Assembly (NCBI RefSeq): GCF_018446385.1
Contig: NC_055986.1
Span: forward strand, 101,961,344 to 102,025,343
Direction: 5' to 3'
Length of the DNA: 64,000 nt
From: Zingiber officinale
Taxonomy: Eukaryota; Streptophyta; Magnoliopsida; Zingiberales; Zingiberaceae
The translations under genes were made by a program, and so were the position numbers. The notes below the pieces were generated by a model. That model was not told where the DNA came from. It made no database searches and was given only the letters and a program-made list of their open reading frames with translations. Below, piece by piece: positions 8,238 through 23,945 of the stretch. Position 1 is the first letter of the stretch; every line of letters starts with the position of its first letter.

Positions 8238-9371
8238 TGTTGGATCGTTGGGCCGGCTAGAAGGGGGGTTGAATAGCCTACAAAAACAAAAAGCACAATC
8301 CTTCTCGAACTTTCAAATAAACACTTGCATAAATTAAAAAGCAGATGAAATAGAAAATAGAGGCACAAGGATATTTACTTGGTTGCAACCGGGGAGGTTG
8401 TTAATCCAAGGAAGTTGTCGCACTAGAATATCTCCTTCAGGCGGAGAAGCCTCTTACAGCAGTGAAAGCACAAAAAAATAGAAGCTAAACTAGAACTTAA
8501 AGCATGCAAGTGTTGGATTCACAATTTCTGAGTTGATTAAACTTCTGGACCAAGGCTATATTTATAGCCTTGGTTGGGGCGCCTGGAAGGGTTCCAGGTG
8601 CCTGGGAGGGTTTTAGGAACCTGGGAAGGGATAAAGTTTTATCCCCGACGCAACCGTCAACGTCCACGTCGAATCTTGATAAACTTTCAGTTCCAGGCAC
8701 CCGGAAGGGTCCCGGGCATCTGGAGTCAGGGCGCCCCTACTGCCTGGGGCACCCCCATCCGGGGCGCTCGGAATGAATCTAGGCGCTCGAACCAAAAGGG
8801 CTCCAGGCGCCCGGAATGGGTCCGGGCACCTAGACCCAAAAGTCAATAGGGGTTGACTTTTTTAGTCTGGGCCCTCTGCTCCGGTTCAGCTCGCTTCGGT
8901 CTGGGTCTTTTGCTCCAGCTCTGCTCGCTTGGGTGATCTCGGCCATCCGGAATAGGACTCACCCAAACCCAACTTCCAGCCTTCTCGAGCAGGCTTCCGC
9001 TCAGGTTTCTCGTCCCTCGGAATCATCGTGTGCTTCCTTCTCGTCCGCCAGCGTACTCATCCGCAGCTCTTCATCCCTCGGTCACACCCCGTGCCGACCT
9101 TCTCGGTAGTCGCGTCTCTTACTCCTCAAGCAGTCTTTCGCTCCGGCTTCTCATCCCTCGGAACCACGACACGCTTCCTTCTCGTCCGCCGGTGTACTCT
9201 TCCGCATCGCCTCGTACCTCAGACGCACCACGTGTCATCTTTCTTGCTAGCTACATCTTCCACTTGACTCCCTGTGCTCCTAAGTTCTTGCAGACTTAGA
9301 TACAAGGTTAAAATACCACATGACTTAACTTAACTTATTGATCACACCAAAACAACGTTGGGGTTCCAACA
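8238..9371 (-). repeat. 5' LTR of the TR-GAG element
   Basis: It aligns with 5412-6527 throughout. The palindromic GGCGCC block is present at about 8577-8830, but its first hairpin has decayed by substitutions and by a short internal duplication near 8605. Confidence 0.9.
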
Positions 9372-9376
9372 GGAGG

Positions 9377-10506
9377 GAGTTGAGATCCCTCATGATGATG
9401 CTCTGATCATCCGAGCGGTGATCGCCAACTACACCATTCACCGGACTTTCATGGGCACGGGGAGTTCAGTGAACATTATCTTCAAGAAGGTGTTTGATCA
9501 GGTGTAGATCGATCGAGGCGAGCTGCTCCCCATAGCAACACCACTTTATGGATTCATAGGCAACGAAGTCTTGCTGATCGGCCAAGCTAGGTTGACCATC
9601 TCCCTGGAAGAGGAGCCACACAGGAGGACTCGGGCCACCAACTTCATAGTGGTGGGTGCACCGTCAGCCTACAATGTCATCTTAGGTCGACCGACTCTTA
9701 ATGAGTTCCGGGCAGTAGTATCTACATACTATCAAAAGATCAACTTCCCAGTCGACGTCCAGGTGGGAGAGGTCAGAGGCGACCAGTGGGTCACTCGGCG
9801 GTGCTACGTCGAGATGGTAAAGTGTGAAGCAAAAGCCGCTTGGGAGAATCCACGCCTAGAGGTAAATGCTATCACCGAAAAACCTCTCACTCTGGTATAC
9901 AAAGAAAAGGAGAAAGTTCATATTCATCCCGAATGGGCGGAGCCAATCACCTTCGTAGCCGCTGATTTGGAGGCACAGAAGAAGGCAGAGTTGGTCGCCT
10001 GCCTTAAGCAAAATCATGATGTATTTGCATGGACAACACATGAGCTTCCTGGAATCTCCCTGAGCTTGGCGCAGCATGAGCTTCATGTCCGACCGGACAC
10101 TCGGATCGACCAAATGGTGGACTCTGCCGTAGGATGCGAGTTGATTTGCATGCTCGATGCGTACCAGGGGTATCACCAAGTGACGCTCGCCCGCGAAGAT
10201 CAGGAGAAGGTCAGCTTCATTACAGTTGACGAGACGTATTGCTACAATGTCATGCCTTTTGGACTCAAGAACGCCGGTGCCACTTACCAGAGGCTGATGA
10301 ACAAGGTGTTCCGACTACAGATCGACCACAATATGGAGGTATACGTCGACGACATATTGATAAAATCCCTCCAAGCTGTTGACCTGTGCGTAAATATTGA
10401 AGAGACCTGTCAGATGCTGAGGATATTTGGGATAAAGCTGAACCTTAGCAAGTGTCTGTTCAGCACGAAGAATGGGCGCTTCCTGGGATACATCATCACC
10501 GAGTAA
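9377..10506 (+). pseudogene. Tat protease and reverse transcriptase, catalytic changes and an internal deletion
   Basis: This region continues the Tat polyprotein after the GGAGG site. The aspartic-protease signature normally DTGSS reads GTGSS (codon GGC at 9454-9456), so the catalytic Asp is lost. A stop follows at 9505-9507. The open frame 9571-10506 covers the end of the protease domain, with the phrase PSAYNVILGRPTLNEF, then the linker and reverse transcriptase. Palm motifs are present (DAYQGYHQ, NVMPFGLKNAGATYQR, VYVDDILIKS). The sequence passes from HVRPDTR directly to IDQMVDSAVGCELIC near 10105, so the fingers part of the RT (roughly 80 residues) is missing. The enzyme would be inactive. 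Confidence 0.85.
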
Positions 10507-11771
10507 GTCATAGAGGCAAATCCAAGCAAAGTAAAGGCCTTGCAAGATATGCGCCCATCTTGTAATTTGAAGGAAGCCCAATGGTTGACCTGTCGGATCA
10601 TGGCGTTATCCAGATTCATCTCCAAGTCATCCGATCGGAGTCTGCCGTTCTTCAAGATACTGCGCTAAGCTACCAAATTTTAGTGGGACGCGGAGTGCGA
10701 TCGGGCATTCAAAGAGCTCAAGGAGTACCTCAACTCCCTGCCTATTTTGGCTAAGTTGTGTGTTGGTGAGCCACTCCGGATCTACCTGTCTTCTACCGAT
10801 TATGCGGTCGGCTCCGATTTAGTTAGGCAGAATCGCAAAGAACAACCTGTGTACTTTTTGAGCCATATATTAAAAGATGTTGAATCTCGCTACACTGGTC
10901 TTGCAAAGTTGGCTTATGCATTAGTGCTCGCCGAGCAGAGACTTCGCCCGTACTTCCTAGCGCACTCAATAATTGTGATGACCAATAGCGCCTTGGGAAG
11001 AGTCCTCCTCAATCCCGAGGTGTCCGGACGACTGATTAAGTGGACGACGGAGCTTAGTGAGTTCGACATTAGTACCAACCACGAACAACCATCAAAGCAC
11101 AATCCTTGACGAATTTCATCACCGAGGTACAGAGTCTAGAGCTAGAAGCTGTTTGGAGGATATACGTGGATGGTTCATCCACTCGGTAGGGAAGCGATAT
11201 CGACATATTACTCATCTCACCACAAGAAGTCGGATGCAACTATCCGTTAGGCTGGACTACAGAGCCACCAATAATAAAGCTGAGTATGAGGCATTGATTG
11301 TCAGCTTACAGGCCACTCGGCATGTGGGAGCCGTTAAAATCCTCATCCACTCGGACTCCAAGTTGGTCGCTCAGCAGCTGTCCGGAATGTTCAGATAAGC
11401 AACATCTAACTCAAGCTCTATGCGGAAGCCTTCGATAAGCTGAAGACAAACTTTCAGGAGGTCATTATACAGAAGATTCCCCGATCAGAGAACCAGGCTA
11501 CAGATGAATTGGCCAACTAGCCAGTTCATTGTTGTCGATCGTGATAGCGCAACCGATTGAACAAGTGTCGCTGGTGGCACACGTTGACCGAATGGAAGGG
11601 ATCACCTTCCCGAACGACTGGAGGACGACAATAATGGAGTACCTACGATCGGGGGTCACATTGGCCGATCAGAAGGAAGCTCGCTTTTTGGAGAAAAGAG
11701 CTGGATGATTCACCATGATCGGAGACCGGCTGTATAAAAAAGTCTTCTCCAGACCTCTGTTCAAGTGCATC
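10507..11771 (+). pseudogene. Tat RNase H, second RNase H and start of integrase (broken)
   Basis: After a stop at 10504-10506 the first RNase H is recognisable around 10690-11080 (for example YLSSTDYAVGSDLV and ESRYTGLAKLAYALV). A second RNase H of the archaeal-like type used by Tat/Athila elements follows at about 11155-11400, with DYRATNNKAEYEAL and ILIHSDSKLVAQQLSG. Remnants around 11450-11510 (SENQATDELA) and 11570-11770 (VTLADQKEARFLEK) lead towards integrase and stop at the junction with the next element. Several stops and frame changes are present. The second RNase H is the main reason for the Tat assignment. Confidence 0.8.
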
Positions 11772-11916
11772 AGATCATGGGTTTAAAAGGATGCATGATA
11801 TCTCCATTGACATGAGACTTTTTTGGGAGAGCCCAAGAGCAAAGCCAAGAGGGCCTAGACCCAAGTGGACAATATCATGCCATTGTGGAGATATGTGAAC
11901 ATCCTTTTGCACAAAA
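11772..11916 (+). repeat. Left (5') LTR of the TRIM-like element, truncated
   Basis: It matches 24026-24172 over about 145 bases, including GGATGCATGATATCTCC-type phrases and the CCTTTTG...CACAA end. The first 40 or so bases of the LTR are missing. Confidence 0.75.
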
Positions 11917-11918
11917 AA

Positions 11919-11938
11919 TGATATCAGAGCCATGGTCC
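11919..11938 (+). other. Primer-binding site of the TRIM-like element
   Basis: TGATATCAGAGCCATGGTCC lies 2 nt after the left LTR end. It is a one-base variant of the tRNA-Met primer site TGGTATCAGAGC. Confidence 0.75.
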
Positions 11939-11980
11939 AGACCAGATGTCATGTGGGGTGGCCTTGAACGAAGTTGAGGG

Positions 11981-12369
11981 TGGGCCCGAAGTAGGTCAGG
12001 GTGATCAGATGCTTGTGAGGAGGCCCAGAGCAGGTCAGGATGGTTGAATGCTCGCGGGGAGGCTCGAAGTAGGTCAAGGTGATCGGATGTTCGCGGGGAA
12101 CCCAGAGTAAGTTAGGGTGACCAGATGCTTGCTGGGAGGCCTGGAGCAGGTCAAAGTGATCAGATACTTGCGGGGAGGTAAGTAGGTCAGGGTGACCGGA
12201 TGCTCGCAGATAGGCCCGAAGCAGGTCAAGATTGACCGGATCCAGCTGCTTACAGGGAGGCTCGGAATAGGTCAGGATGACTGGATGTTTGTGGGAAAGG
12301 CCCCGAAACAGGTCAAGGTGACCGGATACTCTCGGGGAGGTCCGGAGCAGGTCAGGATGACTGGATGCT
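11981..12369 (+). repeat. 39-bp tandem repeat, left part (about 10 copies)
   Basis: The core phrase AGGTCAGGGTGACCGGATGC recurs with exact 39-base spacing (for example 11993, 12032, 12071, 12110). Copies differ by a few substitutions each, and two carry small indels. Because 39 is a multiple of three, one frame stays open as a 13-residue peptide repeat for part of the array. The array is cut at 12369 by the composite insertion and resumes in phase at 23727. Confidence 0.9.
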
Positions 12370-15190
12370 CGTAAAATACCGGAAAATAGGTGAATATTAA
12401 TAAGGGAATTTTCCGGAATTTTTGGACATTTTTCGGGAATTTTTCGGAGCTCGTACGGACAAGTAACGGGGACAAGTACGGGGCCGAGAAAAAAAAAACC
12501 TGTTTAGGCTACCCATTTATGTGAGGAAAAGTTTATTTTCTTTTCCTTTTCTAATTCTTTTTCTTTTTATTCATTTTCTGATTTTCCTTTCTTATTTCTT
12601 TTCTCCTCCCCCGCGTGCCGAGCCATTTCCCCGACACCGCCCTTCACTCTTCTCCGATCGCGTGCCCTAACCGGCGCCGCGGTAGTTCCCATCTCCTTGC
12701 AATTCAAGCCGTGGTCGCGGGTTGCATCTCCTTCTTCCCTTTCCTTCTTCACGCCGTCCCTGTGCCCTTCTCCCCTTCCGTGACACCGAAGCCACCATCG
12801 CTGGTTTCGCCGTGCCCTAGCCGGCCGATGCCATCTCCTTCCTTTTCTCCTTTGCTGACGCCGGCGACCCAATCTCTGCCCTAGTTGAGAGCCACCGTCG
12901 ACCGCTCGGAGCTCTAGTCCTTGCCGTGGAGTTCCTAGCGCCGGCTGCTACTTTTTGTGCCCTAACCCGACGCCAGCCACTCGAGAAGCGCCGGCCACCC
13001 CGATTCCAGCACCCGCGTACCACTGTTGGTTCCACTGTGCCCTAGCCGACACTTGCTCCCGAGCCACTCCGACCACCACCGACTGTTGATCGAGCAGCAC
13101 TGCTGCAAATCCTTTCCGGCACCTCTATCCTTCCGAGCAGTGCAGAGCTTGGATATTCTTCTCTGTTATTGATCAATCCTTCCTTGTGGTGGATCAACAA
13201 ACACAACTATGAGTTAGGTAAGGATTTCTGTTAACGTCAACAGTGTTATGGATGGAGGTATGCTACTATAAGGTTTTCTATTAAGTTGGATTTGGAATTT
13301 GTTTTCCAATTGGCAGTGAACGGTCTGAAGTTGCTGGATTTCGGTCTTTCCGTTGTGAATCGAGTCCGTTGCCATCACAGACGACTGAAGGAGAGTTAGA
13401 GGTAAGATTTATGGTTTTGATCTTTGTGGTAGATTATTGCTAGATGTATTAGCAATAATTATTGACGTAAGTCTAGAAGTTATATAACAGTGTAATTGGG
13501 GTTAATGAAACTAACCCTAACTGGTCGGTGGATTTGAAATTAGTTTAGCTATTTGGTTATAATTAAATTTAGCTAAACTATACGGTTTATTACAGGACTT
13601 TGATTCGAGACGAGCATCTCGACGCCCGAGTTGGACCATTTCGATTGGAGGCGGGTACTTTGACTTATGTCTTTTGATATGCATGATAATATGTTTAACA
13701 TATAACAATAATTGTGTTATCTGGTTGTTTCGGTTGGTCGCTACATGATTAGTTACATGTTTGTTTGTTTATTTATGCTGCACTGCATGATATCTACCTG
13801 ATCACATATGCTTTAGGTAGTGAACCAACCACATGCTATGATATGTTCTGGATCTAGGGTTTATTTGATACCCTATTTGATTGGTGTACCTTCTATTTGA
13901 TACTTCTTCCAGTGGTACACACTTGTATCTAGTTATATGGACTATGCCATGTTTTTAGTGTCATGCATCATGATTGCATACTGTGCGATTGTCGGCTCCA
14001 CTTTGGTTGAGCCCATCGCCAGTTACATGTACTGCACACACCACCCATGGATTAGTTGTATATCTGGCTGGAGTGTGGTTGTTCTGCTGTTTGGCTCCGT
14101 TGGTCAGGTGACTCAGCGTGGTAGCCGACAGTCAGTTCCGCTCTGTTTGGCTCCGTTGGCATTTAGGGTAGCAGCGTGGTAGCCGGCAGATGGTGGACTC
14201 TGTTTGGCTCCGTTGGTCAGGAGACTCAGCGTGGTAGCCGGCAGAGATTTTTCCTCCCCGTCGTTGTGTACCGGGAGATGAGAGCATTGAGCTCCCCCAT
14301 TTATGATTTGGGGCCAGAGGACAGGAGTACTCCGACAGCATTCCGTCCACTCAGTCACTGTCAGGAGCAGTGATGTCAGAGTGCACGGTCACCATATGCA
14401 TTTATTTCATTTTATTGTTGTGATTGCTGCACTTATATGCTGCATTTGTATGGATGCATTTGATTGACATGCATACAGGATTATGATTTCTTCGGTCTGA
14501 CGACCTGTTACCTTTGTACCTTGATCCCGGTTAGTACAGTTATCTCCTGATTTCGTTTCAGTTGCATTTATTCCTTCTCGTATTCAGGAGACTGTGCGCA
14601 TGATTAGTGTTGTCTGTTATTTGTTTTATTATGCATATCAGTGTTGGACTCACCCCGCCTCCATTGTTGATATTTTCAGGTTGAGGCTGTCCGGAGCAGT
14701 TCCAGTCGCTGGCCCCCCATCTGCACGTAGAGCTAGCTCTCTACTAGTTTGTTATTTGTTTTATTTTGGCCTTTTTCTATATCAGACTTTGTTTTTAGTA
14801 TGGTCTTTGGATTTTTCCTATGGATATTGTATGGAGTGATACCTTTTGATGGATTTTTGATATGATATTGGATTCCATTCTACTACGTGCCTGCCTGGAC
14901 GGCAGAAGAGGTGAGTTCGATGGATTTGAGCTTTACGAGTATTAGTGGAGTAGGGTGGATTTCGAGTCAGAGTCCTATTGTTATTGATTACTATTATTAA
15001 CTGCGTGGTTGTGACAGCCAGAGGCTGAATATCTTTATAAACTGCGTGGTGTTTATTTTTTTATTTTTGTTATCATTCCAGCCGCCTGTGGCTGATGTAT
15101 ATGTGATATGTAGAAAGTTTCATATTGTCCGCCGTACAGGGGAGATGCTGCCAAAATTTCTTCGGACAGAGACTCCTCTGGGGCGTGACA
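12370..15190 (+). repeat. 5' LTR of the Tekay-like element in the composite
   Basis: This 2.82-kb LTR aligns with 20043-22837. It ends ...CTGGGGCGTGACA. It contains a GC-rich, CT-rich leader (12590-13150) and three diverged copies of a phrase around CTGTTTGGCTCCGTTGG (about 14088, 14142, 14199). Confidence 0.85.
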
Positions 15191-18100
15191 ATGTTTGCAC
15201 TTATTTTTATCTTCTTGAGATGTTTTTTGAGAGCTTAAGTTTTACGATCTTTGTTTTCGTATTTCGGATAGTTGATATAACCTGATACCAATTGATATGG
15301 TATCAGAGCGCCAAAGTTTGACGATATTTGTTTGATTTCCGTGTGTTGGATTTTTGAGATTTATCTGATACCAATTCATTGGTATCAGAGTAGGGTGTGA
15401 TACTTGCTTTTGAGATTTTGGATATTTTTATACTAGCCCTAGTTGCGAGACATATTGGTGTGGGCAGTTATTTTCGGTTGCACGGATGTGTCCGTTTCGA
15501 TTATGTTATGGACTTCCGTTTTGGATTTATATGGATTTCCGGTGTTTGTTTTTCTCGTACGGAATTCCGAGGTCATTTTGGGGACTGGACAGCGATGGAA
15601 CATCTCCAGACGGCATATAGGTATGATGTTTAATTTTATAGTTTTTGACAGGTATTAGCATTCTTTATTTAGTACCTGTCTGGTTGTTGTAGCACATATT
15701 ACTTGTGATGAGTTAGCCATTGAGGATGGTTGACCTTAATAGAGATAAGGGATTATAGTCTCTGGTGATTTTTCTTATCATACCATCAGTAGTTTTAGCT
15801 TCTGTTACTACTCATAAGGGATGGAGGCACATACCAGCCTCTGCTATTGTTAGTTGGGTAGTGGATGATACCTATAGACTCCTGTTGACTTAGCCAGTAG
15901 AGTTTTTATACTCATACCTTTTGGATATTAGGGTACCCGATACGATGGGAATTGGTCATTGGGGGTTATCATGTTTGATCATTGTTGAGAATGATTTGAG
16001 GTTGAGGGATATTGTGAGATCAGGTATTGTGATATGTTCATTTCTAATGATTTATGAGGATAAATGTTATGTGGTTGTCTGATGACCAATTACTAGATAT
16101 TTGTTTTGATGATCTATTAGTGGATAACTATTTTGATGATTTATATTTGGGATGTCGTTAATGGTGACATAATGAGTGTCATGTATGATATTCACAGGTT
16201 TGATGATTATGGTGGGTGATCATATTATAAATTTGGGTGCTGGAGAGTTTTACGGTTGAATGTGCCTATGAGATTTAAATAAACCTGGTTGGTTATGGAT
16301 AGTTAACAGGATGATATATATATAAGAAAAAAATGATATATGCTTCCTCTGATATGGGACTATGTGGATAAATAATGATTAATGTTTTGAATGCTAACTT
16401 GCCCTCATGGGGAGTAGAGATTTATTCATCTGATATAGTGTGGGCTGATGTTTTTGAGGATGAAGATGAGATTGTTTTGTTGTTCTTAAATTCTGACTTT
16501 TTCTTTTGGGTCGTACACATTTATACATATGATATTATGTGGTTGGATATACCTTAGTTGCTTGTGGAGGATTAAAGTATTCTTGATTAGTTAGTAGATG
16601 AAAGATTTAGTTTTGTTGGTTGATCAGTAGAGGATTGTCATACTCTATTTTTAGAGGTTCGAACCTTTAGGATATTTGTGCTTAGTTATGTATCTAAAGC
16701 ACATTTGAGTACATGCTTTGTACTGACGTGGAAAGGATTGATTTTGCCATATATCACTGACGACTTGGATAGGTTATAGAGGATCGATGTATCATATTCC
16801 ATGAAGACTTTGACCGTGGACTGTATATATCTGGTGGGATAACTTAGAGGGTGCATTGGGATATGTGACCCCGCTGATGTAAGGAAGTGTAGAGCTAATT
16901 GCTTAACACTTATGGGATACAATTGTTACTAGTGTATACTGGAAGAGTACATTTGGATTTATGATGATAAAATTTTCCCCATTAGATATAGTCTTGGTAG
17001 TGTATGACATTGACTTGCAATGTTATACCATGGTGTGTATATCTTTCTTGTCCGATACTAGTTCCTTTGAACCTATAGCAGGGTTGTTACTGGATGATTA
17101 GGCTGTTTGATTTAGGGTTGTTTTTGATTGGTGTATTCATGCTTGATTCATATGCATGAATTTTGTTTAGATATACCGTAACCCATGGGTGTTGGTAGCA
17201 TAAGGTTGGTCTCTTTGATTGAGCTGGTATGCTGATTTTGCATGTCTATATTGGATGTATATTATGATTGTTATGTGTTGTAGGAGTCCTGTGGTAGACT
17301 GCCCATTTGCAAGTAGTATATGTAACCATGTTCTGATATGGTTTGAAGGTTCCTAGTGGATTATAGATATGTAGTTCGGTGTATGTATCTGGATGTATTA
17401 TTGAAGATATCTTGTTGATTAAATCCGAGATGTAGTATAAGTACATCGGTGGTGTTTTGATGGAGGCATTTTGTCGATTTAATCTGAGTTGGGATATGTA
17501 CATATGTGTTTGGTGTGGTATCTGAGGTAACTTTTTGATATGTTTGATTTGTGAGTGCACCTGAGTTTAGTATGCTTTATTGGAAGTATATGTTGGTTAT
17601 ACTCTGGGCATAGGTGAAGATATGTCATGTGGGTGTTGTTTGAGGTGTATTATTGATTTTACCTACATTGATTTTGCACACGTGTTCGGTATGCATTGTT
17701 GGAGATATCACGATGATTTATACCTATGTTGTGAGTATGTTTGGTGTGTACTAATTGGAGGATTATGTCGATCATACATATGTTGTGTGAGCACGTGTGC
17801 CAAGTATATATTGGTAGCAGCATGATGATTCTACTTATGCTGAATGCAGAATGTGGAGTGACTGCATTATGTCATTTGTTGAATTAACCCATCAACTAAT
17901 TTTCCTATCAGTGGATGATCCACTAGGATGCTGATAGAGTTGATGATGGATTTGATTAGTTACTAGGTTGTTATATCCTAGGCTAACCACAGCGAATTGT
18001 GGTAGAGAGATCTTGTACAGTCTCTAGCTGGATAGTTAGGTGCCTTAGGGTACTTAGGTATTGTTTTGTGGTGGAGCGTTGCTCCCACATATCACGGATT

Positions 18101-18430
18101 GCTGGTAGCGGAGCATTGCTCCTATATTTATTGCAGATACATATTTCAGATTATTTGTGGTGGAGTGTTCCTCCCACATATTGAGGATTTCTTGTGGTAG
18201 AGCGTTGCTCCCACATATGTTGTGTTTCCTGTGATGGAGCGTTGCTCTCACCCTGGAGGATTTATTTTTTTTGTGATTTATGTTATTGATGATCAGATTT
18301 TTCGATTTATTATTGGAGATCTTATGAATAGGAATGTCTGTGATACGGACATTATGTGTATTGGTTTTTGTCATATAGGCTTACAGTGCCTTAGATGTTT
18401 TCAGGGACTCGATGATCCTGGTATGTCGAG
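15191..18430 (+). other. Internal region of the Tekay-like element without recognisable coding
   Basis: A sequence matching TGGTATCAGAGC is at 15298-15309, and a weaker one (TGGTATCAGAG) at 15370. The first lies 107 nt past the LTR end instead of adjacent, which is unusual. From about 15700 the sequence is T/G-rich with no gag or protease that I can recognise, so gag is heavily decayed, deleted or replaced. The hairpin repeats at 18069-18252 lie in this region. Confidence 0.5.
18069..18252. repeat. Five copies of a hairpin-forming 25-base repeat
   Basis: GTGGTGGAGCGTTGCTCCCAC and four variants start near 18069, 18101, 18156, 18193 and 18229. The core GGAGC-GTT-GCTCC is self-complementary, and GTGG/CCAC extends the stem. 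Spacing varies from 32 to 55 bases. Confidence 0.75.
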
Positions 18431-18435
18431 GATGT

Positions 18436-19935
18436 TTAGATAGGTGTCCATTATCTTTGTGGACGATGTTGTGATTTATTACGGATCCGAGGTGAGTCAC
18501 GTACACTATCTTTGCATAGATCTAGAGATGATTCGACAAGAACATTTATATGTGATTATCAATAGTGCTGGTTTGGATTGTCTATTGTTATGATGTTTGG
18601 GACACACGGTCACCAGTAGGAGTGTACCGTGGTTCCACAGGAGATAGAGGTTGTTACCGTTGGGAGTAGCCGAAATCAGTGTAGGAGATCCACAGTCTTT
18701 TGTGACTCGCAGGATATTACAGACCTTTCGTCGAGGGTTGCTTTCGCATACCTATGCTACTTTCACGCGTGACTATGAAAGGCGTGAAGTTTACTTGGAC
18801 TGAGGATTGCAAGATCAGCTTCTAGGAGCTGAAGCGGAGACTAGTGTCGGCTTCGATTTTTGGTTTTTACCTTCTGGAGAGGACGGATTTATCTTCTACA
18901 CCGACGCGTTTCTATAGGGTATGGGTGCTGTTCTGGTGCAGCACGTTAGAGTATTCTTATATGCTTCTCGATAGTTGAGGGAGCCTGAGAAGAAAATACT
19001 CAGTTCATGATCTGGAGTTGACCGCTATTATTTTTGCCCTGAAGATTTGGCGGCAGTACCTGTATGATATTACATTGAGATTCTCACTGACCATCGGAGT
19101 CTCAAATATCTGTTCACTCAGAAGGAACTTAATCTTCGACCGAGGAGATAGATGGAGTTCCTGAAGGATTGTGATTGTACCATTAGCTATCACCTGGGAA
19201 AAGCTAATGTGGTTACCGATGCACTTAGCTAGAGGTCCAGAGGGATTTTAGTTTGCCACCGAGTTGTGGTCACAGATTTGATTCAGGATTTCTCTGTGTT
19301 AGACCTTGAGGAGCAGGGACAGACCGAGCAGGGTAGTCTCGTTACCATAATTGCTCAGTCGTCGATCAGGATGAGAATCCGAGAGGCCCAGTTGTTGGGA
19401 CCTCATAGAGCTCAGCGAGGCAGAGTGGTCCTTACTATCGGACAGAGGATGACAGAGGCATAAGACTGCTGGAAGTGTTATACTGACCGGAGTCGGAGAC
19501 TCTTAGAGTTCTCCATTTACGACCATGTATTTTTACGAGTTTCACTCACGAAAGGGGTGAAGAGATTGGCCTCAAAGGTAAGCTAGCTCCGCGATATATT
19601 GGACTTTTCCACATCTCGGAAAGGATTAGAGCGGTAGCTTACCGGTTGGCACTATCGCTGTCTTTGGCAGGCGTCCACGATGTATTCCACGTATCTATGC
19701 TGAGGAGATATGTATCTGACCCGACACATGTGCTGACAGATATCTCAGTTCCCGTTCAGCCTAACGTAACTTATGAGGTGATTCCGGTATGTATTATAGA
19801 CCGGAAAGAGCGTTAATTGCGGAACAAGACTATCCGGCTGGTTAAAGTCGGATGACAGCATTATTCGGATGAGGAGGCTACTTGGGAGCTCGAGGATACT
19901 ATCCGAGCTCGATATCCCCATCTTTTCACTTGAGG
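18436..19935 (+). pseudogene. Tekay-like pol remnant: RT palm, RNase H, integrase C-terminus and chromodomain
   Basis: Reading across several frames, the RT active site (IIFVDDVVIYYGSE) is at about 18445-18490 and RNase H at about 18890-19060. The tether LTDHRSLKYLFTQKELN and YHLGKANVVTDALS are near 19085 and 19190. At about 19520 the sequence resumes with the integrase C-terminal phrase (VFLRVSLTKGVKR). VHDVFHVSMLRRYVSDPTH (near 19675) follows, and the region ends in a chromodomain-type tail (EEATWELEDTIRARYPHLF, near 19875-19930). The integrase zinc finger and catalytic core are missing between about 19460 and 19500. Many stops make it inactive. The C-terminal chromodomain and the order of domains indicate a chromovirus of the Tekay/Del type. 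Confidence 0.75.
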
Positions 19936-20030
19936 TATGTGATTTATTTACCGTTCAGCATTTATACTATATATCTGTTGTTAGTACTTGCTGATGGTAG
20001 ATAACGAAATTTGGGGACCAAATTTTTATT

Positions 20031-20042
20031 AGTGGGGGAGAA
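20031..20042 (+). other. Polypurine tract of the Tekay-like element
   Basis: AGTGGGGGAGAA immediately precedes the TGTAAAATACC start of the 3' LTR at 20043. Confidence 0.85.
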
Positions 20043-22837
20043 TGTAAAATACCGGAAAATATGCGAATATTAATAAGGGAATTTTTCGAAATTTTTGGAC
20101 ATTTTTCGGGAATTTTTCGGAGCTCGTACGGACGAGTAACGGGGACAAGTACGGGGCCGAGAAAAAAAACCTGTTTAGGCTACCCATTTATGTGAGGAAA
20201 AGTTTATTTTCTTTTCCTTTTCTAATTCTTTTTCTTTTTATTCATTTTCTGATTTTCCTTTCTTATTTCTTTTCTCCTCCCCCGCGTGCCGAGCCATTTC
20301 CCCGACGCCGCCCTTCACTCTTCTCCGATCGCGTGCCCTAACCGGCGCCGCGGCAGTTCCCATCTCCTTGCAATTCAAGCCGTGGTCGCGGGTTGCATCT
20401 CCTTCTTCCCTTTCCTTTTTCACGCCGTCCCTGTGCCCTTCTCCCCTTCCGCGACACCGAAGCCACCATCGCTGGTTTCGCCGTGCCCTAGCCGGCCGAT
20501 GCCATCTCCTTTCTTTTCTCCTTTGCCGACGCCGGCGACCCAATCTCTGCCCTAGTTGAGAGCCACCGTCGACCACCCGGAGCCCTAGTCCTTGCCGTGG
20601 AGTTCCTAGCGCCGGCTGCTACTTTTTGTGCCCTAACCTGACGCCAGCCACTCGAGAAGCGCCGGCCACCCCGATTCCGGCACCCGCGTACCACTGTTGG
20701 TTCCACTGTGCCCTAGCCGACACTTGCTCCCGAGCCACTCCGACCACCACCGACTGTTGATCGAGCAGCACTGCTGCAAATCCTTTCCGGCACCTCTATC
20801 CTTCCGAGCAGTGCAGAGCTTGGATATTCTTCTCTGTTATTGATCAATCCTTCCTTGTGGTGGATCAACAAACACAACTATGAGTTAGGTAAGGATTTTT
20901 GTTAACGTCAACAGTGTTATGGATGGAGGTATGCTACTATAAGGTTTTCTATTAAGTTGGATTTGGAATTTGTTTTCCAATTGGCAGTGAACGGTCTGAA
21001 GTTGCTGGATTTCGGTCTTTCCGTTGTAAATCGAGTCCGTTGCCATCACAGACGACTGAAGGAGAGTTAGAGGTAAGATTTATGGTTTTGATCTTTGTGG
21101 TAGATTATTGCTAGATGTATTAGCAATAATTATTGACGTAAGTCTAGAAGTTATATAACAGTGTAATTGGGGTTAATGAAACTAACCCTAACTGGTCGGT
21201 GGATTTGAAATTAGTTTAGCTATTTGGTTATAATTAAATTTAGCTAAACTATACGGTTTATTACAGGACTTTGATTCGAGATGAGCATCTCGACGCCCGA
21301 GTTGGACCATTTCGATTGGAGGCGGGTACTTTGACTTATGTCTTTTGATATGCATGATAATATGTTTAACATATAATAATAATTGTGTTATCTGGTTGTT
21401 TCGGTTGGTCGCTACATGATTAGTTACATGTTTGTTTATTTATTTATGCTGCACTGCATGATATCTACCTGATCACATATGCTTTAGGTAGTGAACCAAC
21501 CATATGCTATGATATGTTCTGGATCTAGGGTTTATTTGATACCCTATTTGATTGGTGTACCTTCTATTTGATACTTCTTCCAGTGGTACACACTTGTATC
21601 TAGTTATATGGACTATGCCATGTTTTTAGTGTCATGCATCATGATTGCATGCTGTGCGATTGTCGGCTCCACATTGGTTGAGCTCATCGCCAGTTACATG
21701 TACTGCACACACCACCCATGGATTAGTTGTATATCTGGTTGGAGTGTGGCGGTTCTGCTGTTTGGCTCCGTTGGTCAGGTGACTCGGTAGTGGTAGCCGA
21801 TCGATTCCTTCTGTTTGGCTCGTTGGCATTTAGGGTAGCGTGGTGGCCGTGGATGGTGGACTCTGTTTGGCTCCGTTGGTCGGAAGACTCAGCGTGGTAG
21901 CCGAGAGTTTCCTCCTCTCGTTGTGTCGGGAGATGAGAGCATTGAGCTCCCCATTTATGATTTGGGGCGGAGGGCGAGTACTCAAGCATTAGTCCACTCG
22001 ATCCTTTGTCGGGGCGGTGATGTCGAGTGTCTGGTCACCATATCATTTATTTCATTTTATTGTTGTGATTGCTGCACTTATATGCTGCATTTGTATGGAT
22101 GCATTTGATTGACATGCATACGATTATGATTTCTTGATCTGACGACCTGTTACCTTTGTACCTTGATCCCGGTTAGTACAGTTATCTCCTGATTTCGTTT
22201 CAGTTGCATTTATTCCTTCTCGTATTCAGGAGACTGTGCGCATGATTAGTGTTGTCTGTTATTTGTTTTATTATGCATATCAGTTGTACCTGCTGAGTGT
22301 TGGACTCACCCCGCCTCCATTGTTGATATTTTCAGGTTGAGGCTGTCCGGAGCAGTTCCAGTCGCTGGCCCTCCATCTGCACGTAGAGCTAGCTCTCTAC
22401 TAGTTTGTTATTTGTTTTATTTTGACCTTTTTCTATATCAGACTTTGTTTTTAGTATGGTCTTTGGTTTTTCCTATGGATATTGTATGGAGTGATACCTT
22501 TTGATGGATTTTTGATATGATATTGGATTCCATTCTACTACGTGCCTGCCTGGACGGCAGAAGAGGTGAGTTTGATGGATTTGAGCTTTACGAGTATTAG
22601 TGGAGTAGGGTGGATTTCGAGTCAGAGTCCTATTGTTATTGATTACTATTATTAACTGCGTGGTTGTGACAGCCAGAGGCTGAATATCTTTATAAACTGC
22701 GTGGTGTTTATTTTTTTATTTTTGTTATCATTCCAGCCGCCTGTGGCTGATGTATATGTGATATGTAGAAAGTTTCATATTGTCCGCCGTACAGGGGAGA
22801 TGCTGCCGAAATTTCTTCGGACAGAGACTCCTCTGGG
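20043..22837 (+). repeat. 3' LTR of the Tekay-like element, lacking its last 8 bases
   Basis: It is nearly identical to the 5' LTR over most of its length but stops at CTCTGGG, where the partner continues GCGTGACA. The shared GGG is also the first three bases of the 5S sequence that follows. Differences from the 5' LTR are unusually concentrated at about 21785-22140. There is also a 14-bp segment near 22285 absent from the 5' copy. Confidence 0.85.
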
Positions 22838-22952
22838 TGCGATCATACCAGCACTAATGCACCGGATCCCATCAGAACTCCGAAGTTAAGCGTGCTTGGG
22901 CGAGAGCAGTACTAGGATGGGTGACCCCCTGGGAAGTCCTCGTGTTGCACCT
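22835..22952 (+). rRNA. Full-length 5S rRNA sequence fused to an LTR end
   Basis: It runs from GGGTGCGATCATACCAGC to TTGCACCT, the full mature 5S length (118 nt). The internal promoter elements are present: box A (GAAGTTAAGCGTGC), the intermediate element and box C (GATGGGTGACC). By eye it has about two substitutions relative to the usual plant sequence. Its first base coincides with the broken end of the Tekay 3' LTR. No T-run terminator follows; seven bases (ATTAATC) separate it from the Cassandra element. It is a single copy, not a rDNA array, so it is probably a retro-copy rather than a working gene. Confidence 0.9.
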
Positions 22953-22959
22953 ATTAATC

Positions 22960-23269
22960 TGTAACGCCCCGGCCCGGGCGGGCCCCACCGAACCGAACTG
23001 GGAATGCCACCACAATTGCCTATCGGGTTGACGACTAGCTCCACAGACCACCGGAGGTCCTTTCAGCATGCTTTGTCCTCACTCGCACGCACCCTGGAAA
23101 ACTTCCCAGGAGGTCACCCATCCTCAGATTTCTCCAAGCCAAGCACGCTTAACTGTGGAGTTCTTTGAGTTTGGGCTTCCGAAAAGGAAGGTGCACCTTG
23201 GTGATATGGATAGTACCATCTAACCTTTTAAGCCATACTTAACCAGAATCTCAGAACCGGGGTATTACA
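22960..23269 (-). repeat. Cassandra 3' LTR
   Basis: 310 bp, pairing with 23417-23726 with only a handful of substitutions. The 5S-derived block lies at 23101-23174 in antisense to the plus strand. Confidence 0.9.
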
Positions 23270-23416
23270 ATCACCCCCACTTAAAGACACAACGTCCTCG
23301 TTGTGTAACCACAAATCACACCACAGACAAAATCCCAAAATCTCCCTCGCTAGGTGGTGCCCTGGGTGCTCCTGCCACAGGCGCACTCACGGTCGCAAGG
23401 TCGCTCTGATACCATC

Positions 23417-23726
23417 TGTAACGCCCCGGCCCGGGCGGGCCCCACCGAACCGAACCGGGAACGCCACCACAATTGCCTATCGGGTTGACGACTAGCTCCA
23501 CAGACCACCGGAGGTCCTTTTAGCATGCTTTGTCCTCACTCGCACGCACCCTGGAAAACTTCCCAGGAGGTCACCCATCCTCAGATTTCTCCAAGCCAAG
23601 CACGCTTAACTTTGGAGTTCTTTGAGTTTGGGCTTCTGAAAAGGAAGATGCACCTTGGTGATATGGATAGTACCATCTAACCTTTTAAGCCATACTTAAC
23701 CAGAATCTCAGAACGGGGGTATTACA
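23417..23726 (-). repeat. Cassandra 5' LTR
   Basis: 310 bp, same length as its partner. The 5S-derived block is at about 23558-23631. Its outer end (GGGTATTACA) is the right border of the composite insertion. Confidence 0.9.
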
Positions 23727-23945
23727 ATGCTTACGGGGAAGCCTAGAGCAGGTCAGGGTGACCGGTACTTGCGGGAGGCAAGTAGGTCAGGGTAACCGGA
23801 TGCTTGCAGGGAGGCTCGAAGCAGGTCAAGGTGATCGAATGCTTGTGGGGAGGCTCGGAGTAGGTCAAGGTGACTGGGTGCGGATGCTTGCGGGGAGGCC
23901 TAGAGCAGGTCAGGGTGACCAGATACTCGCGGGGAGGCCCGGACC
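23727..23945 (+). repeat. 39-bp tandem repeat, right part (about 5-6 copies)
   Basis: It resumes the array of 11981-12369 in exact phase after the ATGCT duplication, and ends at GGCCCGGACCATG. One copy has a short internal duplication near 23878. Confidence 0.9.

Follow-up and report, generated by a model that had tools for sequence, protein, structure and literature searches.

A Tekay-like chromovirus, a 5S rRNA copy and an inverted Cassandra element inserted as one block in Zingiber officinale

The analysis described here concerns a stretch of 64,000 nucleotides of the Zingiber officinale genome (contig NC_055986.1, positions 101,961,344 to 102,025,343 of the forward strand; hereafter the window, with positions counted from its first letter), in which a long terminal repeat (LTR) retrotransposon named here a Tekay-like chromovirus, a copy of 5S ribosomal RNA (rRNA) and an inverted copy of Cassandra, a terminal-repeat retrotransposon in miniature (TRIM), follow one another in this order between two copies of ATGCT. 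The block that they form (12370-23726) is confirmed as one insertion with a 5-bp duplication. Its outer ends belong to different families, the left one being a Tekay-like LTR and the right one the outer LTR of the inverted Cassandra, and neither element has a duplication of its own: Cassandra has TAATC on one side and ATGCT on the other, and the Tekay 3' LTR stops 8 bp short at its inner end, where GCGTGACA is missing. The best reading of this arrangement, and in our judgement a probable one, is that reverse transcription of Tekay, Cassandra and 5S RNA took place within a single particle and that the product entered the genome in one integration. In the following list of features, and in the text, the large contigs of the assembly are designated by C numbers and individual loci by L numbers; PBS denotes the primer-binding site and U5 the unique region at the 3' end of an LTR.

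11983..12369, + strand: host 39-bp tandem array, left part (tandem repeat finder; collinear with the empty allele, 12201-12369 base by base)
12365..12369, + strand: target-site duplication ATGCT, left copy
12370..15190, + strand: Tekay-like 5' LTR, with C and not T as first base, ending in GGGGCGTGACA
15191..15227, + strand: 37 bp identical to non-Tekay DNA after a Tekay 3' LTR on C8, occupying the positions at which relatives have the spacer between LTR and PBS and the greater part of the PBS
15228..20033, + strand: Tekay-like leader and internal region, decayed, with RNase H and integrase C-terminal remnants
20034..20042, + strand: polypurine tract GGGGGAGAA
20043..22837, + strand: Tekay-like 3' LTR, lacking the terminal 8 bp
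22835..22955, + strand: full-length 5S rRNA copy, from +1 to CACCTATT, with GGG common to it and U5 (Rfam; the 3' end by comparison with a single dispersed copy, L014)
22956..22959, + strand: one extra A, then ATC, the complement of the GAT found after the Cassandra LTR on the PBS side
22960..23269, - strand: Cassandra 3' LTR with 5S-like block
23270..23416, - strand: Cassandra internal domain, with PBS TGGTATCAGAGC (complement of 23403-23414)
23417..23726, - strand: Cassandra 5' LTR, which begins at the right border of the insert
23727..23731, + strand: target-site duplication ATGCT, right copy
23732..23943, + strand: host 39-bp tandem array, right part (tandem repeat finder; empty-allele alignment)

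One insertion with ends of two families

The evidence that carries the single insertion is an empty site, found at C2:114084663 (98%) in a search with the right flank, where a single ATGCT stands with the array in register (sequence GACTGGATGCTTACGGGG). Window positions 8775-12369 align to C2:114069000-114088800 with 97.97% identity over 3,596 columns (one gap column), positions 23727-23869 align to the same region with 97.90% identity over 143 columns without a gap, and the left-flank and right-flank alignments overlap by exactly five bases, ATGCT. Around the site (12201-12369 and 23732 to ~23869) the array matches the empty allele base by base without any gap, which means that it was uninterrupted before the insertion, and the number of array units gained or lost relative to that allele is 0. 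An earlier interpretation of this DNA from its letters only (the sequence-only reading) had described ATGCT on both sides of the block, an array restored in phase on removal of the insert, a Tekay LTR at the left edge and an inverted Cassandra LTR at the right, neither with its own duplication; the coordinates of the two ATGCT copies, the gapless alignment and the end sequences bear out each of these points, and the empty site that it proposed to look for exists, with one ATGCT, on the presumed homologous chromosome. It is from this collinear match that C1 and C2 appear to be homologous chromosomes, and a 3.09-Gb assembly with large contigs numbered to C22 fits a diploid assembly. Since the 5S-Cassandra joint has one match in the assembly at up to three mismatches, namely the window locus itself, the insertion is on one haplotype only. 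A second, more distant copy of the host region (C2:114553000-114562900, ~90%) is also without the insert.

The same array has been hit twice, with one insertion per haplotype: 138 bp downstream of the site, the empty allele has another insertion with LTR-type ends (TGTTAGGATG...CCAACA) and its own duplication, TCAAG. The 39-bp array and its flank are a dispersed repeat, with at least 129 genome matches for the 1-kb right flank, 40 candidates of which were scored.

The array contains ATGCT repeatedly, with 8 copies in the part that was inspected, which would suit two independent insertions, Tekay first and Cassandra later, whose inner duplications were removed by deletion or unequal recombination and between which the 5S sequence served as repair filler. 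The chance that two random cut sites in this array share a 5-mer is 0.0064; the empty allele, collinear on both sides with no unit gained or lost, is stronger evidence for one insertion than this probability, and, being unshifted, it contradicts the recombination between two insertions in a tandem array that the sequence-only reading had kept as its alternative. Independent insertions would further require that Cassandra hit precisely the end of the Tekay LTR and that 13 bp were deleted afterwards, whereas the inner Cassandra end is intact and the LTR ages agree. The Tekay LTR pair shows 80 differences over 2,778 sites and 17 gap events, a Kimura two-parameter distance (K2P) of 0.0295 with a standard error of ~0.003, which would overstate the age if the two LTRs derive from different RNAs; the Cassandra pair shows 7 differences over 311 sites (K2P 0.0229, standard error ~0.008). 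The two divergences, whose comparison the sequence-only reading had also suggested, agree within error. Taken together, we consider independent insertions very improbable.

The uniqueness of the 5S-Cassandra joint in the assembly could be put down to an erroneous assembly join of unrelated contigs. Such a join would not, however, leave the site of a collinear empty allele flanked by a duplication of 5 bp, and composites of the same two families recur elsewhere with matching flanks of their own (see below), so that this explanation is hardly credible. Ty3 inserts at the start sites of RNA polymerase III, and the Tekay part meets the 5S sequence exactly at +1, as if Tekay had inserted in a Ty3-like manner at the start of a 5S gene and Cassandra had inserted beside it. 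However, the Tekay LTR is without its last 8 bp at this point, so that the Tekay-5S joint is no integrase joint; in addition, Cassandra comes directly after the 5S copy and the empty allele is without a 5S gene, and we attach next to no probability to targeting of this kind. Array recombination, an assembly join and Ty3-like targeting were all set aside on the empty allele.

The Tekay partner keeps remnants of gypsy-type RNase H (RT_RNaseH, 27.3 bits; cut-off 24.8) and of an integrase C-terminus (SH3_Tf2-1, 65.2 bits; cut-off 30), and a chromodomain that is broken by stops in the window copy and scores 26.5 bits (cut-off 25.1) in the C8 relative, the combination that marks the Tekay lineage of chromoviruses; the name "Tekay-like chromovirus" is that of the sequence-only reading, the window copy having yielded no reverse transcriptase for placement in a tree. 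Its 5' LTR begins with CG and its 3' LTR with TG. The terminal bases of the two families, TGTAAAATACC and GGGGCGTGACA in Tekay and TGTAATACCCC and GGGGCGTTACA in Cassandra, are alike, which fits the use of both by one integrase. A transfer RNA (tRNA) search of the window with bacterial settings found none.

Cassandra is widespread in vascular plants. The window copy is full-length (22960-23726) and inverted relative to Tekay, with 310-bp LTRs that contain a 5S-like block (local alignment with 5S nt 40-103) and a short non-coding internal domain of 147 bp, in which the PBS stands two bases from the LTR and a GTGGGGG tract precedes the 3' LTR. The PBS presumably fits the initiator methionine tRNA. 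A methionine PBS is given for Cassandra in PMC10853983. Among 30 loci read, there were 19 full-length Cassandra rows (18 distinct copies, window included), 8 of them with a perfect duplication; with TAATC on one side and ATGCT on the other, the window copy has none, and it moved as part of a composite. At L041, L053/L054, L062 and L063, Cassandra has extra or shortened units, as in the tandem arrays of other plants.

The inner joints and the 37-bp patch

The 5S copy, on the + strand, scores 110.8 bits in Rfam (E 1.6e-23) and opens at the first base of the RNA, 8 nt from the Tekay LTR end, sharing GGG with U5, whose sequence is CTCCTCTGGGGCGTGACA in the 5' LTR and CTCCTCTGGG|TGCGATC in the 3' LTR. 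At its other end, the copy seems to reach the 3' end of the RNA, because the dispersed copy L014 runs past CACCTATT and continues with CACCTATTTTTT; judged against L014, the bounds (+1 at 22835 and the last base of CACCTATT at 22955) are ends of the RNA, as in a retrocopy, and not rDNA spacer. That the copy begins exactly at +1 and extends to the RNA end, as a run-off copy of the RNA would, counts for reverse transcription in one particle. Genome-wide, 5S genes give 402 matches at up to one mismatch; those listed include clusters on C5, C6, C10 and C15 and several single dispersed copies, and the listed matches of the C15 cluster are mostly ~430 bp apart.

On the Cassandra side of the 5S copy, the ATC of the joint also precedes the Cassandra LTR on its PBS side (ACCATC|TGTAACG), where the LTR and the PBS are separated by two bases, GA. 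This GA would still be present on a cDNA end before processing, and the inner Cassandra end thus appears to keep bases of unprocessed cDNA (the LTR, GA and possibly a third base). Three further loci, L045, L060 and L064, likewise terminate in GA, with neither a perfect duplication nor a PBS after it.

The joint between 5S and U5 (U5 GGG|TGCGATC) is not confined to the window. A 22-base pattern spanning it matched 6 places (5 forward, 1 reverse) at up to three mismatches, compared with 1 in the reversed control, and the joint is real at two loci beyond the window, in different contexts. At C22:11255234, where the pattern has no mismatch, 5S nt 1 to ~52 lies between a sense Tekay leader and an antisense Tekay U5; at C14:72044576, with two mismatches, both in U5, 5S nt 1 to ~50 passes over into Cassandra within the 5S block common to both. 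In the window as at C22 and C14, the +1 end of the 5S copy sits on the same GGG in Tekay U5, as re-annealing of run-off 5S RNA copies at this triplet would predict. Three other loci on the list for this pattern (L012, L013 and L014) proved on reading not to be Tekay-5S joints. In a search for an allele of the C14 chimera, only repeats of up to 83% were found besides the chimera itself among the 40 candidates scored.

The C22 region (C22:11245500-11264500; L017, L018) contains further junctions of its own: the Tekay leader is joined to antisense 5S at two places, and, adjoining the Tekay leader, Cassandra U3 (the unique region at the 5' end of the LTR) is joined to the 3' half of real 5S, a possible route for Cassandra to take up current 5S sequence.

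At the other end of the Tekay element, the LTR does not lead into a normal PBS. Related Tekay copies (e.g., on C14 and C22) have a six-base spacer and then the PBS directly after the LTR, whereas the window has the 37-bp patch; the LTR end with the first 24 patch bases occurs at 2 places at up to three mismatches, the window and C8:21929838. At C8 the patch follows the 3' LTR of another Tekay copy and continues into DNA that matches neither the window Tekay nor Cassandra. The two loci agree over the last 25 U5 bases and the 37 patch bases and diverge on both sides; because the C8 LTR (86.96% identical to the window LTRs over the first 161 columns) is otherwise not their closest relative, a switch inside the shared U5 end must be assumed. 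The patch is probably the trace of a further template, and we infer, as the simplest reading, that a read-through transcript of the C8 copy templated the left LTR-PBS joint. The rarity of this joint suggests that the Tekay cDNA was itself abnormal.

Tekay-Cassandra joints across the genome

Searching the assembly for Cassandra-type LTR-PBS boundaries gave 2,419 places at up to two mismatches and 0 in the reversed control, the places usable for pairing being those listed, on C1 to C3. Two loci among the 30 read (L046 and L057) have a Cassandra LTR and PBS followed by a Tekay leader, the first bases at L046 having been assigned to Tekay by eye in comparison with C22; L058 was rejected as Tekay, its Cassandra LTR-PBS being followed by a second short Cassandra piece. 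The far end of L057 (L071) reads Tekay 3' LTR, ATTTAG, PBS, Cassandra internal domain and Cassandra LTR, and the composite as a whole (C1:143456301-143466045) has ATAAC on both sides and outer LTRs that both belong to Cassandra (K2P 0.0296).

A pattern composed of the Tekay LTR end, six bases, the PBS and ACCTTG of Cassandra, which counts joints with Tekay only and with no second LTR family, matched 1,115 places genome-wide at up to three mismatches and none in the reversed control (0). Of these, 28 are exact and 5 have one mismatch; the two-mismatch places, among the matches listed, look mostly like ordinary Tekay and in a few cases like Cassandra. Twenty of the 28 exact joints were read (155 bp each), and all 20 consist of Tekay U5 followed by Cassandra sequence, with at least 51 of 54-55 aligned bases matching in 19 and 32 of 55 in the other (L094), which has a deletion inside the Cassandra part. 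A further joint, at C1:143456737, was read as real. Since the last 45 U5 bases are identical in only 2 of 190 pairs of joints, most joints are separate events or old ones.

For 3 of the 28 exact joints, a listed Cassandra LTR-PBS place lies 7-9 kb upstream on the same strand. The outer flanks of the three paired composites are ATAAC/ATAAC at C1:143.46 Mb, ATTCG/ATTCG at C2:57.86 Mb and CAGAA/CAGAG, alike in 4 of 5 bases, at C2:76.27 Mb, the two composites on C2 being known from their ends and flanks. More Cassandra-Tekay-Cassandra pairs are likely to exist, because the Cassandra boundary places listed cover C1 to C3 only. The sequence-only reading had proposed a search for further junctions: the Tekay/Cassandra and Tekay/5S joints recur, and the 5S-Cassandra joint of the window has no second match in the assembly at up to three mismatches.

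These PBS composites would arise if Cassandra minus-strand DNA, at its PBS, annealed to a Tekay template with the same PBS, Tekay were then copied via its own transfers back to its PBS, and Cassandra plus-strand strong-stop DNA finished the molecule. The outer order that PBS strand transfer predicts is the order at C1:143.46 Mb, and strand transfer in one particle is the simplest route to such joints. The 28 PBS joints and the paired composites point to the co-packaging of Tekay and Cassandra.

Another rearranged locus, L060 (C1:168371709-168374733), contains a Cassandra end with GA, a run of G and an inverted Tekay LTR start with the internal end, the Tekay sequence being palindromic.

Proposed mechanism and comparison with known systems

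The scheme that we propose starts from the order, polarity and joints of the block, its single integration, and the recurrence of the 5S-U5 and inter-family PBS joints. In the first step, one virus-like particle of a Tekay-type chromovirus would hold Tekay RNA, Cassandra nucleic acid and 5S rRNA, and a complete Cassandra plus strand with an unprocessed U5 end would be extended along the 5S rRNA from the 3' end of the RNA to +1. The CCC that ends this 5S copy would then pair with the GGG that lies in U5, 8 nt before the end of the Tekay LTR, and prime Tekay minus-strand DNA, so that reverse transcription would proceed through Tekay. Because such a minus strand is without the copied tRNA end, the usual second transfer would be impossible, and this would explain the patched Tekay LTR-PBS joint, which would have been finished with the aid of a read-through transcript of the other Tekay copy (C8). 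Finally, a linear cDNA with one Tekay LTR end and one Cassandra LTR end would integrate once and duplicate ATGCT. Within this scheme, the particle, the order of the switches, the read-through RNA and integration by Tekay's integrase are the parts that we infer.

A different origin of the inner joints has to be weighed, in which host end joining linked the inner ends of finished Tekay and Cassandra cDNAs and of a stray 5S cDNA, either before integration or after concerted insertion of one end each, with integrase using the two outer ends. Both joined ends are indeed U5 ends, that of Cassandra appears blunt and not processed, and the GGG would fit microhomology joining. Host end joining leaves three observations unexplained, namely the 37-bp patch at the Tekay PBS, which stands at an LTR end only in the window and on C8, the completeness of the 5S copy from +1 to the 3' end, and the same 5S-U5 joint at C14 and C22; we therefore regard it as unlikely. 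The chimeric cDNA integrated as a unit that the sequence-only reading had proposed is supported by the empty site, the agreeing LTR divergences and the recurrent joints, and it stands in that part; for the entry of Cassandra, end joining of a finished cDNA stands as a rival to template switching.

Several points weigh against reverse transcription of the three RNAs in one particle. A locus that speaks for end joining is L045 (C1:54670636-54673660), where a Cassandra U5 and a Tekay U5 lie tail to tail without 5S, both ends with the spacer bases of seemingly unprocessed ends. No further Tekay match was found around L045 in C1:54657700-54662700 or C1:54666500-54670640, nor was a matching TTCGG flank found in the stretches read, which is put down to the truncation of its Tekay LTR. 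Coincidence would produce the GA of the Cassandra end in 1 of 16 cases (the three-base match in 1 of 64), and the left LTR of the chimeric cDNA would need a non-standard second strand transfer. A parent Tekay copy outside the assembly may already have carried the patch, and the LTR on C8 is not the same as those in the window. A shared clean duplication at C14 or C22, looked for by eye and with simple patterns, was not found. At C1:143.46 Mb the interior is rearranged, a Tekay LTR end and PBS being followed by an inverted Tekay LTR piece (L071, C1:143456301-143464300), and formation of the PBS joints by DNA recombination via the short PBS homology, e.g., with circular cDNA, is possible but less likely. 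As Cassandra is non-coding and the window Tekay is decayed, the helper would also have to be a third copy.

With these reservations, a Tekay-type chromovirus is a strong candidate for the helper of Cassandra. In its full form the proposal is that Tekay-type particles serve as the Cassandra helper in Zingiber officinale, that their integrase takes mixed Tekay and Cassandra ends, that packaged 5S rRNA forms the bridge, and that composites spread Tekay between Cassandra ends and the reverse; we give this proposal about an even chance. The 5S RNA would be suited as a bridge because of the likeness between its 5' end (GGGTGCG) and the U5 terminus (GGGGCG) and because Cassandra carries 5S sequence. 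Mixed-end integration and the helper question are where the interest lies: Tekay-type chromoviruses are indicated by about thirty PBS joints and by a single integration that involved a Tekay end and a Cassandra end, and the question becomes testable in particles and with purified integrase. In the block, a tiny parasite has moved together with a large element, probably the one that mobilises it. An analysis of Cassandra arrays calls its autonomous partners unknown (PMC7215508), the Helenus/Ajax paper of 2024 finds nothing to indicate the family moving Cassandra (PMC10886601), and the accessible portion of Maiwald 2024, on Cassandra and 5S promoter evolution, names no helper (PMC10853983); larger relatives are given for 11 of 289 TRIM subfamilies in Gao 2016 (PMC4717578). 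No Tekay-Cassandra composite appeared in the titles and abstract starts among the literature matches listed, subscription journals being largely outside the search.

Capture of cellular or foreign RNA into chimeric cDNA is known for Ty1/Y' and other LTR elements of yeast. The chimeras made by long interspersed nuclear elements (LINEs), such as the WEIRD/Mg-SINE/MGL retrogenes of Magnaporthe (PMC2104539) and LINE-1 chimeras with non-coding RNAs (PMC13174262), are like the window in that copies of different RNAs, up to three partners, are joined by template jumps and enter in a single insertion; they use LINE reverse transcription, whereas the window has an LTR element, a 5-bp duplication and integrase-type ends. 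Tandem arrays of Cassandra TRIMs, for which Kalendar et al. (2020) offer template switching as one route (PMC7215508), likewise show Cassandra rearranged during reverse transcription or recombination, but they consist of Cassandra only. The closest logic is that of complex insertions of LTR elements in Triticeae, rice and maize, each flanked by a single pair of 5-bp duplications and ascribed by Sabot and Schulman (2007) to template switching between co-packaged RNAs, with VejuL and BARE2 attributed to jumps between different packaged RNAs (PMC1950507), and it is the same for the Cassandra-Tekay-Cassandra composites described here. Like those complexes, the window has a single flanking duplication, as evidenced by ATGCT and the empty site. 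In four of them (two Angela-like, Squiq and Opie) the outer LTRs are alike and of one family (PMC1950507), as at C1:143.46 Mb, whereas the window combines two unrelated families, one of them a TRIM with 5S sequence, with a cellular RNA, and its outer ends are of different families. With the 5S copy, an LTR element has taken up a cellular RNA over its full length as a bridge; LINEs are the better-known case of such capture.

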